This document shows positions 1-18,764 of a DNA stretch of 54,608 nucleotides, one piece after another (the stretch's first letter is position 1; the number at the start of each line of letters is the position of its first letter). The stretch comes from Planctomycetaceae bacterium (GTDB lineage: Bacteria; Planctomycetota; Planctomycetia; Pirellulales; Pirellulaceae): the NCBI GenBank assembly GCA_021298315.1, contig JAJTFC010000041.1, forward strand, positions 1 to 54,608, written 5' to 3'. The notes below the pieces were generated by a model. That model did no database searches. It was not told where the DNA came from and was given only the letters and a program-made list of their open reading frames with translations. The translations under genes and the position numbers were made by a program.

Positions 1-1562
1 TCCAGTCGGAACACAAGAAGAGCGGGGACCGTGAATTTGAAATCCTTTCCCCGGAAAAGATGCTCGAAATTCCAATTTTTTCCGGGATACCCTACAAGTT
101 TCTTCAGTTCAATGGTGGTGCTTGCGTACGAAGAATTCTACAGCCCGGCGATGTGCTTTGTCGTGAAGGCGAGTACGGTGCAACCGCGTTTCTGATCCAA
201 CGGGGTAAGTTCGAGATCCAAATCAATAAACGCGGAAACAAGGTTGCCAAGCCGACTTTAGCGAAGAAAGGTTTCTTGAATAGGATTTTCTCTGGTTCGG
301 GATCGTTTGTTCCCACTTTAGCCACTGGATCGGACACCGCGAATTCTTCGAATGCAACGAAAATCTACCGAGGAGCCGAAGACGTCATCCTCGGAGAGAT
401 GGCTTGCTTGAATCGCTATCCGCGTACGGCTACGGTCGTTGCTGTCGAGGAATCCGAGGTCATCGAGATCGGTAGTAATGTTCTGTACATGCTCCAACGA
501 AACGGAGCGAGCCGCAAAGTGCTCAATGAAGCCTACAGGCGGCACGCCCTGAACACCGACTTGAGCCGAATTCCCATTTGCCGAACCTTGAGCCCAGAGG
601 AAGTCAGAAATCTTGCTCAAAGAGTTGATCTTATGAGCGTTGAGCCTGGGCAACCTATCTTCAAGGAGGGGGATCCAGGGAACGATGTCTTCATGGTTCG
701 TCTGGGATATGTCAAGGTATCGAGGATGCAAGGCATGAGAGATCAAGTGGTCAATTACATAGGCCCTGGAAATCTCGATGGCAACATCGGTGTGTTTGGC
801 GAAGTTGCCGTACTGTCGAAGCTATACCAGAACCAGCTTGGGGATGAATTCGCCGCCTTAAACTACCCAATCGGATTGAGAACCTCTAGTTGTACTGCGT
901 TGGATCACGTTGAATTGGTTCGCATCCCTGGTGAATTGATTAAAGAGATCGCAGAGTCGAACGAAGAGTTTAGGAAAGTTTTAGTCGAACGTGCCGAGAC
1001 GCTTCTCCGACGAGACATCAATCGAGATGTCTCCGACAATTCGATGAAAGCAAATTTCGTCGCACAAGGTCTCTACAATGCTCAAAGCCTTTTGGTCCTG
1101 GATCTTGAATCATGCACTCGATGCGATGAGTGTTCGAAAGCCTGCGCCGATGCTCATGATGGAGAGACGCGATTGGTTCGAGACGGACTTCGCTTCGAGA
1201 ATTTTTTAGTTGCAACCTCTTGTCGCTCTTGTACCGACCCGTACTGTCTGGTCGGATGTCCTGTCAACGCGATCTTTCGAGAAGGCGATAAGGAGATCGT
1301 CATCGAAGACCACTGCATCGGATGCGGTCAATGTGCAACGAATTGTCCCTATGGTAACATCACGATGTACGGGCATGAGGACGGCTATCGTCAAGAAGGA
1401 GAGCGTAAGATTCCGGTGATAAGGCAACGTGCCACGACTTGCGATCAGTGCAAGAGCATCGGTGGCACACCTCGCTGTGTTTACGCTTGTCCTCACGAAG
1501 CTGCATTCCGAATGTCTGGTGAGCAACTTACAACTCTCGTCGCAGAAAGAACGGCCAAATAA
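1..1562 (+). CDS. Cyclic-nucleotide-binding / 4Fe-4S ferredoxin fusion protein (5' partial)
   Basis: The frame is open to the left edge (first full codon at base 3), so the gene begins outside the window; the ATG at base 60 is probably internal. Counting from that ATG, a CNB-type beta-barrel covers about residues 25-145 (GDVLCREGEYG early, an ILGEMA motif later) and a second about residues 170-310 (FKEGDPGNDVF). The last 150 residues hold four four-cysteine sets, starting CTRCDECSKAC, CRSCTDPYC, CIGCGQCATNC and CDQC, as in DmsB/PsrB/HybA electron-transfer subunits, so four [4Fe-4S] clusters are expected. No signal peptide is visible, but the true N-terminus is missing. The family suggests ligand-gated electron transfer; ligand and redox partner are unknown. 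It ends 3 bases before an amidohydrolase, so they may be cotranscribed. Confidence 0.85.
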   Translation, partial: QSEHKKSGDREFEILSPEKMLEIPIFSGIPYKFLQFNGGACVRRILQPGDVLCREGEYGATAFLIQRGKFEIQINKRGNKVAKPTLAKKGFLNRIFSGSGSFVPTLATGSDTANSSNATKIYRGAEDVILGEMACLNRYPRTATVVAVEESEVIEIGSNVLYMLQRNGASRKVLNEAYRRHALNTDLSRIPICRTLSPEEVRNLAQRVDLMSVEPGQPIFKEGDPGNDVFMVRLGYVKVSRMQGMRDQVVNYIGPGNLDGNIGVFGEVAVLSKLYQNQLGDEFAALNYPIGLRTSSCTALDHVELVRIPGELIKEIAESNEEFRKVLVERAETLLRRDINRDVSDNSMKANFVAQGLYNAQSLLVLDLESCTRCDECSKACADAHDGETRLVRDGLRFENFLVATSCRSCTDPYCLVGCPVNAIFREGDKEIVIEDHCIGCGQCATNCPYGNITMYGHEDGYRQEGERKIPVIRQRATTCDQCKSIGGTPRCVYACPHEAAFRMSGEQLTTLVAERTAK

Positions 1563-5500: not shown

Positions 5501-6457
5501 CTAGCGGCCGTTCTCTTCGAGCGTCGGCACGGCGATCTCGGCGACGATCTCTTCGAGAACTCGATCGGCCGTGACTTTTCGCAAACGGGCTTCAGGACGC
5601 AGAATTAATCGATGGCTCATGACTGGTTGCAAGATGCGTTTGACATCATCTGGCTGGACAAATTCGCGACCGCGAATGGCCGCCATGGCTTGAGAGGCTC
5701 GAAATAGGGCGATCGTCGAGCGTGGCCCCGCCCCGAGTGCTAAATCCGTATGAGCTCTGGTTTCGTGAACAATCTGTAGAATGTACTGACGCACTTTTGT
5801 ATCGACGTAAACTTTCTTTACCAATTGCTGTGCTTCGAGCAGTTCATCGATGCTCACCACAGCTTTAAGGCCTTGGATGGGGTGCTCGGTTTCGAGCAGT
5901 TGCAGCATCCGCAATTCCTCCTCCATCGAAGGATATCCGAGGGTGAATTTCATGAAAAAGCGGTCGAGTTGTGCTTCGGGCAAGGGAAATGTTCCCTCGT
6001 GATCGACGGGGTTTTGGGTTGCGATGACAAGGAACGGTGGTGGGAGTTTGTGGGTTTGACCATCTACGGTCACGCAGGATTCAGCCATCGCCTCCAGAAG
6101 CGCCGACTGTGCACGAGGTGTCGTGCGGTTGATTTCGTCTGCCAAGAGGATATTGGTAAAGATAGGCCCGGGTCGGAATTCGAAGTCGGAGGTCTTCTGG
6201 TTGAATATCGAGGAACCGGTGATATCGCCAGGGAGCAGATCAGGCGTGCACTGCACCCGCTTGAATTTTCCGCCGACACTTGCTGCAAGGGCTCTTGCAA
6301 GCATCGTCTTAGCCACGCCTGGCACATCCTCGAGCAGAACATGTCCCCCGGAAAACCAGGAGACCAGGGAGAAGACCAACTGTTTGCGTTTGCCGACGAT
6401 GCATTTCTCAACATTAGTGATGATCTTGCGAGAGGTTTCGTAGACGGCATTCGACAT
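5501..6457 (-). CDS. MoxR-family AAA+ ATPase
   Basis: A 318-residue MoxR-type ATPase. It has a Walker A variant, DVPGVAKT (about residues 43-50), as is usual for MoxR rather than GKT. Walker B is LLADEINR (about 107-114), sensor 1 is ATQNP, and the C-terminal lid contains GPRS. MoxR proteins act as chaperone-like ATPases with VWA or DUF58 partners in assembling membrane or periplasmic complexes. The DUF58 partner follows after 3 bases. A GGAAATAGAAC stretch precedes the ATG at 6457 and provides a plausible ribosome binding site. The dehydratase gene upstream ends 37 bases away, so a shared transcript is possible but not required. Confidence 0.92.
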   Translation of the reverse strand: MSNAVYETSRKIITNVEKCIVGKRKQLVFSLVSWFSGGHVLLEDVPGVAKTMLARALAASVGGKFKRVQCTPDLLPGDITGSSIFNQKTSDFEFRPGPIFTNILLADEINRTTPRAQSALLEAMAESCVTVDGQTHKLPPPFLVIATQNPVDHEGTFPLPEAQLDRFFMKFTLGYPSMEEELRMLQLLETEHPIQGLKAVVSIDELLEAQQLVKKVYVDTKVRQYILQIVHETRAHTDLALGAGPRSTIALFRASQAMAAIRGREFVQPDDVKRILQPVMSHRLILRPEARLRKVTADRVLEEIVAEIAVPTLEENGR

Positions 6458-16017: not shown

Positions 16018-16066
16018 TTGCTTCGAGCAAATCGAACTAATCATCCAGATTCCAACCGAAATTTTG

Positions 16067-16097
16067 GTCCCGGCTGATGTCAGCTCACAGCCGGGAC
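16067..16097 (+). terminator. Probable terminator after clpX
   Basis: A perfect 10-base-pair GC-rich stem, GTCCCGGCTG (16067-16076) with CAGCCGGGAC (16088-16097), has an 11-base loop and is followed by a short TTT. The T-tract is weak, so termination may be partial. It separates clpX from the Pup-like/ligase pair. Confidence 0.6.
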
Positions 16098-16169
16098 TTT
16101 AGAATAGATGCTTGTCCCTGGGAGTAGTTCCGCTGGTCATGTCTTCTGCTGACTCGATGTGGTAAACCG

Positions 16170-16397
16170 ATGAGCATAAAAATGACAACCGGAAAATTGT
16201 TCGATCCTGACTCGATCGAAAATGATCCGATACCACCGAAGGCTACATGGTTAGATACCAACGGCACGGCTTCCAGTTTTCCGAACAACGCGATCGAGTG
16301 TCGCTTGCAAGCCTGGGTGAAGTCCGTTGAAAAAGATACTGAGGAGAAAGTCCAAGAGTATTTGGAGCAGAGCGACGCAGGCCAAAGCGGCGAATGA
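16170..16397 (+). CDS. Candidate Pup/UBact-like protein modifier
   Basis: A 75-residue, acidic, cysteine-poor protein. The N-terminal half is rich in Pro, Asn, Asp and Ser and looks disordered. The C-terminal half is a probable amphipathic helix (RLQAWVKSVEKDTEEKVQEY), ending in GQSGE. Prokaryotic ubiquitin-like Pup and the related UBact proteins are small, largely disordered and end in Gly-Glu or Gly-Gln; the terminal Glu side chain is joined to substrate lysines. This one already ends in Glu, so deamidation would not be needed. The strongest support is context: it overlaps or abuts a PafA/Dop-family ligase gene. ATG 16170 (or in-frame ATG 16182) lacks a strong ribosome binding site. Sequence similarity alone is weak, so the function is inferred. 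Confidence 0.6.
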   Translation: MSIKMTTGKLFDPDSIENDPIPPKATWLDTNGTASSFPNNAIECRLQAWVKSVEKDTEEKVQEYLEQSDAGQSGE

Positions 16398-18072
16398 GCC
16401 GCAGCTACTCGATCGCTATCTTGGACTCGAATCTGAAATGTTCTGCCGGCATCCCAAGGATGCACAAAGGAACTCTCTGGCTGAGTACTCAGAGATCTTG
16501 CGCTCTGTGCAGACCCGACTCCCCATCGCACCTAGTTCTAATGCACTTCGCTGGTTCCTCTCCAATGGATCGAGCGTATCGCTCGAGATGGGAGGCTCAG
16601 CGGATCTTTCGAGGGCATTGATCGAGGTGGCTACCCCAGAGACACGCAGCCCGCGTCAAGTTGTTTGCTATCAGCTTGCCAATGAAAGGATCTTGCAAGA
16701 TGCATTGGCATCAAAACGGCCTGTGGATCAGTGGTCGTTGATTAAATCCAACAGCGATGCGTATGGTCACACCCTCGGGCAGCATGAATCGTACGATATG
16801 CGGATAGCCCAAGGCCCTTTGCTGGTAGCTTGGTGGATCGGGTTGCTGTTGCTGTTGATCCCGCTTTTGATTTACAGAGCCGTTGCTAGTGTGTGGCTAG
16901 GCGCAATGCTCTTGCTGTCGATTTGCATTCGAACCATCCGAGGTGTCCGGAGGGATTCCGAAAATTCAACTCCCCAACTCGCTGACTTACAAAGCCCTGA
17001 TTGCCTTCTAGGGTTTCCGATGGCTCCTTGGCAGTGGCTCTTGGCTGCCGCTGGGTTGCGTCGATTGCATTTCCCGATCGTTTGGCTTTTTGGTTTGTTG
17101 CTAACGGCCGTTGCACTTCGTCCGCATCGCAAGAAGGCCTCGGCGTTTTTGGCATCGCGATGTCTGCTCGATGGGGCTGGGCATTTGGATAGCGATTCGC
17201 GGTTCTGGGTTTCCGCTCGGGCTGCCGTTGTTGATCGGCAAATCGGATTTGGAAGCTACAACCAACACCGCCCTATATTCCGCTGCGATCCTCTCTTGAG
17301 AAAATTGCTCGCGGGCCCTTATTGGAACTTGAGCCAGTTCGCTTCTTTGTTCCATCCCGTTCAGCGAATCGAGATCGCAATCGGTGACTCAGGGCTTTGC
17401 CAGCAATCGCAGTGGTTACGTATCGGAGCAACCGCATTGGTTTTGGACTGGGTTGAACAGACTCACGAACCGAATGTGATCGAGCTCAAGTCGGTTGCAG
17501 AAGCGACTTGTGAATTCGCCAGGGACTGGATGCTCGTACGCTCGGTTCCTGATCGTTTTGGTCAGGACTTCCGAGCAAGGGAGATATCGAGGGTCTATTT
17601 GAGGTCATTAAAAAGTTGGCTTGAAAGAAAAGCGGATGTTCCAAGGGAGGCCTGGGAGATTATCGAGCTTTGGCAAATGACCCTCAATCAAATCGACATG
17701 ATCCCGAAGAGCCAAGGCCAACCTCCCATCTTGCTTGTCGGAAGACTCGATTGGATCAGTAAGCTTTGGTTGATACAGCAGATGGACAAGAGTACCGACT
17801 GGAGTATCAAGAAGAAGATCGACATACGCTACCATGAGTTGTCGGATCAAGGATACTACCAACAATTGGTAGATCAGCTTCAACTGCCACCGCTTATCAG
17901 TGACCGCGAGGTCCAGAGAGCCATGCGAGTACCTCCATCCGACTCGCCAGCATGGCGACGTGGAAATCTAATTCGTGAGCTTGGCGATTCTCAATGCAAC
18001 TTGGTTGTAGGCTGGGAATCGGCTCAATATGATTTGGAAGGCCAGCACTACATCGTCCAGTTTCCGAGATGA
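16327..18072 (+). CDS. PafA/Dop-family (Pup-ligase-like) protein with membrane insertion
   Basis: The family joins the C-terminal Glu of Pup to lysines (PafA) or removes it (Dop), using ATP. Numbering from TTG 16327, motifs include LGLESE (32-37; PafA has GIETE), NGSSVSLE (80-87), ATPETRSPRQ (102-111), SNSDAYGHTLGQHESY (141-156), LLDGAGHLD (280-288), NQHRPIF (312-318) and IGDSG through RIGATALVLD (352-374). PafA's catalytic Asp, seven residues after the NG, is Glu87 here. Residues about 163-275 are an insertion with hydrophobic segments near 165-183, 186-202 and 236-264, absent from soluble PafA. The start is uncertain: TTG 16327 overlaps the Pup-like gene by 71 bases, and no in-frame ATG lies before the LGLESE motif. 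Confidence 0.75.
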   Translation: MKKILRRKSKSIWSRATQAKAANEPQLLDRYLGLESEMFCRHPKDAQRNSLAEYSEILRSVQTRLPIAPSSNALRWFLSNGSSVSLEMGGSADLSRALIEVATPETRSPRQVVCYQLANERILQDALASKRPVDQWSLIKSNSDAYGHTLGQHESYDMRIAQGPLLVAWWIGLLLLLIPLLIYRAVASVWLGAMLLLSICIRTIRGVRRDSENSTPQLADLQSPDCLLGFPMAPWQWLLAAAGLRRLHFPIVWLFGLLLTAVALRPHRKKASAFLASRCLLDGAGHLDSDSRFWVSARAAVVDRQIGFGSYNQHRPIFRCDPLLRKLLAGPYWNLSQFASLFHPVQRIEIAIGDSGLCQQSQWLRIGATALVLDWVEQTHEPNVIELKSVAEATCEFARDWMLVRSVPDRFGQDFRAREISRVYLRSLKSWLERKADVPREAWEIIELWQMTLNQIDMIPKSQGQPPILLVGRLDWISKLWLIQQMDKSTDWSIKKKIDIRYHELSDQGYYQQLVDQLQLPPLISDREVQRAMRVPPSDSPAWRRGNLIRELGDSQCNLVVGWESAQYDLEGQHYIVQFPR

Positions 18073-18260: not shown

Positions 18261-18572
18261 TCAGACCGCTGCAGCTTTCTTTCGGCTCTTAGGTTCACGG
18301 ACCGGAGCGGCCTCGATCACTTTAAGCTCCATGGGCATGAGAATTTCGTGTGCCGGAATCAATTCGATATGGCTGCATCGTTCAAGCTCAAATCGACGTG
18401 GGTTCTCACGGCATAAACAGAGTGCTAAGAGTGAGCGTGAATCCTCCATCTTGATCGGACTGATAACCCGCTCGGTCAACTCCCCGTCTTTGGCTCGATA
18501 TCTCAGTCGCACTGCGTAATCGTCTGGAGAGTACATCGCTTGCCTAAGAATCGCGACTTCGCTGTTTCCCAT
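18261..18572 (-). CDS. Small WYL-like domain protein
   Basis: A 103-residue protein from ATG 18572, with GGAG nine bases upstream; a longer frame from GTG 18626 is less likely. Its body (LRYRAKDGELTERVISPIK, then LLALCLCRENPRRFELER, then CSHIELI) follows the pattern of WYL domains: a short beta core with a basic R-F-x-L-x-R strand. No DNA-binding domain is attached. WYL proteins often sense nucleic acid or nucleotides and regulate transcription; PafB/PafC beside actinobacterial pafA are WYL proteins. Here it faces the ligase gene from the opposite strand, beyond the tRNA. WYL assignment is by pattern only. Confidence 0.55.
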   Translation of the reverse strand: MGNSEVAILRQAMYSPDDYAVRLRYRAKDGELTERVISPIKMEDSRSLLALCLCRENPRRFELERCSHIELIPAHEILMPMELKVIEAAPVREPKSRKKAAAV

Positions 18573-18764
18573 GGATCCGATCTCCGATGCACTATGTTTC
18601 GCGTTGTTTTTTCCTGAATTACGCACTTCTAACTAGCAATATCGCTTGGGGCTGTGACACCTCTGGTCACTGAGCATCTCGAAAAACCCTCAAACTGGAA
18701 AAAAACATCAAAAAAGGTTACGATCTTGGGGCCCCGATTACTCCAGTTATCAAAAAGGCTTCTG

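Follow-up and report, generated by a model that had tools for sequence, protein, structure and literature searches.

The window, that is, the whole stretch of 54,608 nucleotides analyzed here, carries two genes on the forward strand, a small pup-like tag gene and a gene for a PafA/Dop-like ligase, which overlap by 71 nt if the ligase starts at the TTG at 16327. The gene clpX lies upstream of pup, and a tRNA-Gly gene follows the ligase. The features at the locus are listed below by position and strand.

16061–16105, + strand: hairpin between clpX and pup (−23.9 kcal/mol, z −4.7, 0 of 200 shuffles as stable)
16170–16397, + strand: pup-like tag gene, 75 amino acids, C-terminus ...EYLEQSDAGQSGE, with a conserved C-terminal motif
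16327–16397, + strand: 71-nt overlap of tag and ligase genes, where a putative TTG start of the ligase falls within the tag gene but in a different frame
16327–18072, + strand: membrane-type Pup ligase (PafA/Dop-like), 581 amino acids from TTG, PF03136
16420–16437, + strand: GhExE nucleotide/Mg motif LGLESE (E35 and E37), invariant in the 34 sequences of alignment A1
16585–16587, + strand: codon of E87, in the place of the PafA/Dop catalytic-loop Asp; Glu in 87 of 88 membrane-type ligases
16816–17121, + strand: hydrophobic, putatively membrane-spanning insert, approximately residues 164–265, from hydropathy and modelled helices
18164–18236: tRNA-Gly, downstream of the ligase

A small WYL-domain protein is encoded just past the tRNA-Gly gene, on the minus strand (18261–18626).

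The 581-codon frame is a protein of the Pup-ligase fold, which is glutamine-synthetase-like, and is closest to PafA and Dop. It matches the Pfam profile PF03136 with 210.4 bits (E = 6.2e-62; curated cut-off, 25). The scores with the equivalog models for PafA (TIGR03686, 119.4 bits) and Dop (TIGR03688, 120.6 bits) are far under the respective cut-offs of 551.3 and 492.3. Compared with solved structures, the profile of 34 ligase sequences matches Dop (4b0r, E = 7e-60) and PafA (4b0t, E = 2e-46). Structure prediction and a fold search had been proposed in an earlier note on this DNA as a check of the PafA/Dop relationship. The AlphaFold model (mean pLDDT 86, pTM 0.87) matches both enzymes in Foldseek, the closest being Dop (4b0r, E = 2.7e-24, TM-score 0.81 by target), with the PafA-Pup complex 4bjr giving E = 1e-22 and a TM-score of 0.73. 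The ordered motifs that the note had read in the frame were all located, namely LGLESE at residues 32–37, N80-G81, ATPETRSPRQ, SNSDAYGHTLGQHESY at residues 141–156, GAG at residues 283–285, NQHRPIF, and RIGATALVLD. Among named relatives, the six closest to the ligase come from Pirellula sp. or Planctomycetota bacterium metagenome-assembled genomes, with identities of 69–75%.

The position of E87 should be noted. In the profile alignment, this residue is matched with the catalytic-loop Asp of C. glutamicum PafA. The 4bjr chain has Asn at the same position, which we take to be an engineered inactive mutation. In PafA and Dop, the Asp in the loop between the two cradle strands is the proposed catalytic base, as described in PMC3511204. 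Glu is found at this position in all 28 sequences of the window's genus and in 59 of the 60 other membrane-type sequences, the lone Asp being that of locus L126. Among 13 soluble homologues, nine have the loop Asp in the alignment, another three have it on visual inspection, and the remaining one does not contain the region. The stretch from the E87 position to E100 is 11–13 residues long in all 88 membrane-type ligases versus 3–5 in the soluble ones, a fragment excepted, so that about 6–9 extra residues follow the loop Glu in the membrane type. The genus departs from the family motifs at two further places. The [HQ]x[NH] motif on strand 4 reads HES in the window, and its third place is Ser in 27 of the 28 genus sequences and Asn in 58 of the 60 other membrane-type sequences. 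The Q/H position on strand 6 is Glu in 27 of the 28 genus sequences. Together with the loop Glu, these departures suggest that the activity of the ligase could be altered. The significance of HxS as such a sign is weakened, however, since 6 of the 12 soluble homologues that were aligned have this Ser as well.

The ligase contains a hydrophobic insert of about 100 residues, which is absent from the earlier note. In the model, two helices (residues 164–205 and 234–261) directly follow core strand 4 (residues 152–159), which bears the [HQ]x[NHS] motif (GQHESY). The hydropathy of the window insert peaks at 2.56, 1.95, and 1.77. The spacing between Y156 and G283 is 126 residues in the window and 114–188 across 34 sequences, compared with about 26 residues at the matching place in PafA, judging from the alignment, and 32 in five soluble homologues. 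"Membrane type" is a class that we assigned from the hydropathy listing, and by that measure a hydropathy of at least 1.6 is reached by all 83 located membrane-type inserts (five were not located) versus none of six located soluble ones. In a tree made by a quick method from 38 membrane-type and 15 soluble rows, with the insert and the base columns removed, all 38 membrane-type rows fall on one side of a branch with an SH-aLRT support of 98. These predictions make it very likely that the ligase is anchored in the membrane. If the number of spans is even, either two or four, both catalytic halves would face the cytoplasm.

The small open reading frame at 16170–16397 on the forward strand bears out the earlier description of an acidic 75-residue protein ending in GQSGE; it contains 14 Asp/Glu against 7 Lys/Arg residues. 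Its homologues share the C-terminal motif [VI]xxD[STCA]...Y[LIV]...GE in the alignment, with few single-position exceptions, and all 34 aligned tags end in GE, in keeping with the Gly-Glu/Gly-Gln end of Pup. The search for adjacent tags demanded a G[EQ] end, and every frame found ends in GE. The predicted structure of the window tag has a mean pLDDT of 47–49 for residues 1–30 and a helix at residues 39–68, which suggests that the N-terminus is probably disordered and that the C-terminal half is helical. A profile search against Pup families, which the note had also proposed, gave no support, as tag profiles of 34 or 42 members matched no Pup family and none of the Pup chains in the PDB. No match to UBact was found either, though the libraries contain no UBact model that we know of.

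The way in which the two genes overlap is conserved in the genus. A TTG codon in the ligase frame, 71 nt before the end of pup, is present at all 28 genus loci, which represent 22 distinct 24-mers, and at the matching place in 6 of 43 loci outside the genus. This TTG needs T as the third base of a Val or Ile codon; of the 687 Val/Ile codons that precede a G in these ligase genes, 176 end in T. We therefore infer a selected internal start. In the window's genus, the ligase thus appears from the sequences to start at the conserved TTG within the tag gene, and the translation of tag and ligase may be coupled. The hairpin at 16061–16105 probably marks the end of the clpX transcript, although it is not among the terminators listed by the terminator scan. 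The earlier note had hinted at a link with ClpX. This hint was not supported, as clpX adjoins the pup-ligase pair at 8 of 36 loci, all from close relatives that share several other genes as well. The adjacency is thus plain synteny, and we rejected ClpX as a general functional partner. No neighboring gene is conserved across all loci, whose flanks vary in length and in some cases stop at contig ends.

Pairing was examined at 36 representative loci from 34 genomes and at 52 further membrane-type loci. A small GE-ending frame adjoins the ligase at 34 of the 36. The other two, L068 and L076, run off their contigs without a full tag frame (a partial tag is visible in L076); they are included in alignment A1 and left out of A2. 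Left out of A1 are L058, which is cut by a contig end, and L056 (4796–6470), in which the ligase frame is split near the N-terminus by an assembly error or a mutation. A GE-ending frame also adjoins the ligase at 39 of the 52 further loci. Ten of the 13 loci without an adjacent tag are from genera g65, g70, g71, g75, and g81, and these ten genomes have a tag match elsewhere (E = 8.5e-9 to 0.008, some of the matches weak). The other three, L107–L109, have no tag within the locus stretch examined.

The same picture was obtained in a survey of 222 genomes of the family with a completeness of at least 80%, using the tag profile A3 with E values up to 0.01. PF03136 is found in 111 genomes and the tag profile in 105: 104 have both, seven have the ligase alone, one (G200) has the tag alone, and 110 have neither. 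One of the seven, G078, has a soluble-type ligase. The tag lies within 4 kb of the ligase in 73 of the 104 genomes and is not adjacent in 31. In seven of these 31 (G127, G164, G185, G186, G216, G219, and G226), both genes are on one contig at a distance of 0.6–7.4 Mb; in the remainder they are on different contigs, the case of G029 looking like a contig break. Seven unlinked tags were inspected, and all end in GE. Co-occurrence is partly by construction, because the 42-row tag profile was built from ligase-adjacent tags, mostly of these genomes. The independent evidence consists of the unlinked tags and of the single tag match among 111 ligase-free genomes; as the genomes are related, we claim no p-value. 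The pairing of the ligase with a Gly-Glu-ending partner, on which the earlier note had let its reading depend, thus recurs in relatives at 34 of 36 loci and in 104 of 111 ligase genomes. In genus g7, each of the three genomes (G032, G183, and G184; loci L061 and L062) contains two tag-ligase pairs, which are possibly two parallel tagging systems.

Among relatives of the window's genome, PF03136 is found in all 26 of the genus, in 7 of 10 of the family, and in none of 23 others of the order. In a sample from the phylum, 37 of 392 genomes have it, the window's own included. Of 20 loci from this sample, 15 are of the membrane type and five are soluble, so the membrane type reaches beyond the family. 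A second kind of cluster occurs within the family at L065 (G035, contig C75, 5907–13180, minus strand). Its two Pup_ligase proteins are encoded in tandem, and the tail of one of them is weakly TPR-like; the cluster also includes a protein that matches Prok-JAB below the cut-off and an AAA ATPase whose Mpa/ARC-like match is weak. Ligase pairs similar to those of L065 are present in G113 and G117 (L150 and L151). In other planctomycete families, L095–L099 have adjacent soluble Pup-ligase pairs with the catalytic Asp, and in L095, L097, and L098 a tag ending in GGQ or GGE lies upstream.

The OB domain of Mpa/ARC (PF17758) is found in none of the 222 family genomes; among 14 control genomes, C. 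glutamicum and four archaea were positive. We used this domain since TIGR03689 was uninformative as a yes/no test: other AAA proteins match it in 60 of 60 genomes, none over the cut-off. The 20S β subunit was searched for with TIGR03690, in 60 relatives and then in the 222 genomes. None of the 222 is over the cut-off, and neither is any control genome. Weak matches occur in 43 of the 222 genomes (maximum 30.3 bits) and presumably represent HslV. PF00227, which covers both 20S and HslV, is over the cut-off in 0 of 23 genus genomes, with one weak match (G015), versus 12 of 13 genomes from elsewhere in the order. The genus thus seems to be without HslV too. These results support the suggestion of the earlier note that tagged proteins have a destination other than the proteasome. 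No separate Dop-like gene was found, as the window's assembly, which is 89.6% complete, contains one PF03136 gene and no second.

A conserved protein of about 265 residues, hydrophobic at its N-terminus and probably forming a coiled coil, is encoded next to pup in two arrangements, seen in at least 12 genomes. It is encoded at 6394–7194 in L162 and 6137–6940 in L164, and lies upstream of pup in L053, L060, L070, and L071. It looked like a candidate receptor, since Mpa binds Pup by coiled coils (PMC3511204). We regard it as a weak lead, because it is found in 212 of the 222 family genomes, with or without the ligase.

The proposal of a pupylation-type pair is supported by the fold, the PF03136 profile, the GE-ending partner, and a co-occurrence that persists even where the genes are unlinked. 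The conserved membrane pupylation pair is real, and, judging from sequences and models, it is probably active. We consider that the two genes probably form a one-enzyme pupylation system at the cytoplasmic membrane, and there is a good likelihood that the enzyme conjugates the tag to proteins. By analogy with PafA chemistry, the ligase would phosphorylate the γ-carboxylate of the terminal Glu of the tag with ATP, E87 would take the role of the loop Asp, and the activated tag would be passed to a lysine on a protein in or near the membrane. In the window's genus, translation of the ligase would start inside the tag gene. No deamidase would be needed, since the tag natively ends in Glu, and the single PF03136 gene in the assembly fits this scheme. 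It is highly probable that the tag is read outside any proteasome. As Mpa/ARC, the 20S proteasome, and HslV were not found, the least certain step has several options: the tag could be non-degradative, or it could be read by FtsH, ClpXP, Lon, or some other receptor.

The active-site departures from PafA and Dop also suit a different activity, in which the protein would be a γ-glutamyl ligase, a hydrolase, or a modifier of the tag rather than an enzyme joining the tag to proteins; examples would be a Dop-like amidase or an enzyme adding an amine or amino acid to the Glu of the tag. Dop outranks PafA among the closest solved structures. The residues of ATPE after the base are mixed in this respect: compared with Table 1 of PMC7947786, Pro is the Dop residue, but Ala and Thr are the PafA residues. 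The stretch between GhExE and NG argues against a Dop-like enzyme, because its 42 residues in the window (41–60 in the 34 sequences) are too few to hold both a stretch of PafA length and the 37-residue Dop-loop. Moreover, the tags end in Glu and leave nothing for an amidase to deamidate, and the assembly yielded a single PF03136 gene, so that a ligase distinct from this enzyme was not found. We therefore regard a non-conjugating enzyme as unlikely. Similarly improbable is delivery of tagged proteins to ClpXP in particular, mirroring the order clpX-pup-pafA. The directly upstream clpX gene and the failure to find a proteasome, Mpa/ARC, or HslV are in its favor, but that neighbor is confined to 8 of 36 loci of close relatives (some other loci being cut by contig ends), and a strong hairpin parts clpX from pup in the window.

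The missing proteasome, Mpa/ARC, and Dop genes, together with the half of the family genomes that show no PF03136 match, might alternatively indicate that the pair is what is left of an ancient Pup-proteasome system, in decay and now without function. This is very improbable, as dozens of species conserve the tag end and the core of the ligase, unlinked tags are retained, both genes are absent together in 110 genomes, and three genomes (those of genus g7) keep two pairs. Conjugation by the single membrane enzyme is thus the reading that we prefer. Only tentatively do we extend it to a branch of its own, membrane-embedded and one-enzyme, with Glu as the base and without a proteasome, Mpa/ARC, or HslV, whose tagging would be mainly non-degradative or of an FtsH type and which would be distinct from the pupylation studied in laboratories.

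Most of what is known of pupylation concerns the delivery of proteins to the proteasome. The actinobacterial Pup-proteasome system resembles the pair described here in the fold and core motifs of the ligase and in a small tag with a terminal Glu that is probably disordered over much of its length. In contrast to that system, the pair has one enzyme with a membrane insert and a loop Glu, its tag is outside the Pup profile, and no Mpa/ARC or 20S was found. UBact, from the Lehmann and Ciechanover laboratories, likewise combines a non-actinobacterial Pup-like tag with an adjacent PafA-type ligase, but its loci reportedly carry proteasome genes, which were not found here. Corynebacteria perform pupylation without a 20S proteasome and keep the proteasomal ATPase (PMC3511204). 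The order of pup directly before pafA and the lack of 20S are as in our family, whereas the OB domain of the ATPase is found in 0 of 222 family genomes here.

The closest precedent is a prediction. Iyer, Burroughs and Aravind (2008; PMC2588565) described membrane-anchored Pup ligases in Rhodopirellula and Plesiocystis, with four transmembrane segments, a linked membrane-protein gene, and no linkage to a proteasome; they described pup as invariably adjacent to a PafA gene and proposed that membrane proteins are modified. As far as can be compared with the available part of that text, the two descriptions agree in a predicted transmembrane insert that follows core strand 4 of a PafA homologue, in predicted anchoring, in a small G[EQ]-ending partner, and in the absence of a link to proteasome genes. 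They differ in the two long modelled helices here versus four transmembrane segments there, in the absence here of a neighbor recurring over all loci, and in the 31 of 104 genomes in which pup lies apart from its ligase. The Asp-to-Glu change is not mentioned in the same part of PMC2588565. Hecht et al. (2020; PMC7947786) used a single-copy PafA/Dop homologue of some Planctomycetes as an outgroup, with 29–31% identity to PafA and Dop and partial alignment with the Dop-loop. It is probably the same type of enzyme as the window ligase, although the window protein has no room for a full Dop-loop; the insert and the tag are not discussed in the available portion of PMC7947786. In the open-access literature, no experimental work on a membrane-type Pup ligase is among the matches listed.

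The membrane-anchored Pup ligase is thus a kind known from the 2008 prediction, and the pair in the window is a further member. In the available text of the earlier accounts, we saw no mention of a Glu in place of the loop Asp, of a putative ligase start inside pup, of unlinked tags, or of a missing reader. About half of the genomes of this planctomycete family co-inherit a tag and a ligase that looks membrane-bound, while neither the proteasome nor its ATPase was found in the family and, in one genus, HslV was not found either. The modification of membrane proteins forecast in 2008 can now be tested with a minimal set of two genes, and the Asp-to-Glu change provides a natural variant for studying the mechanism.
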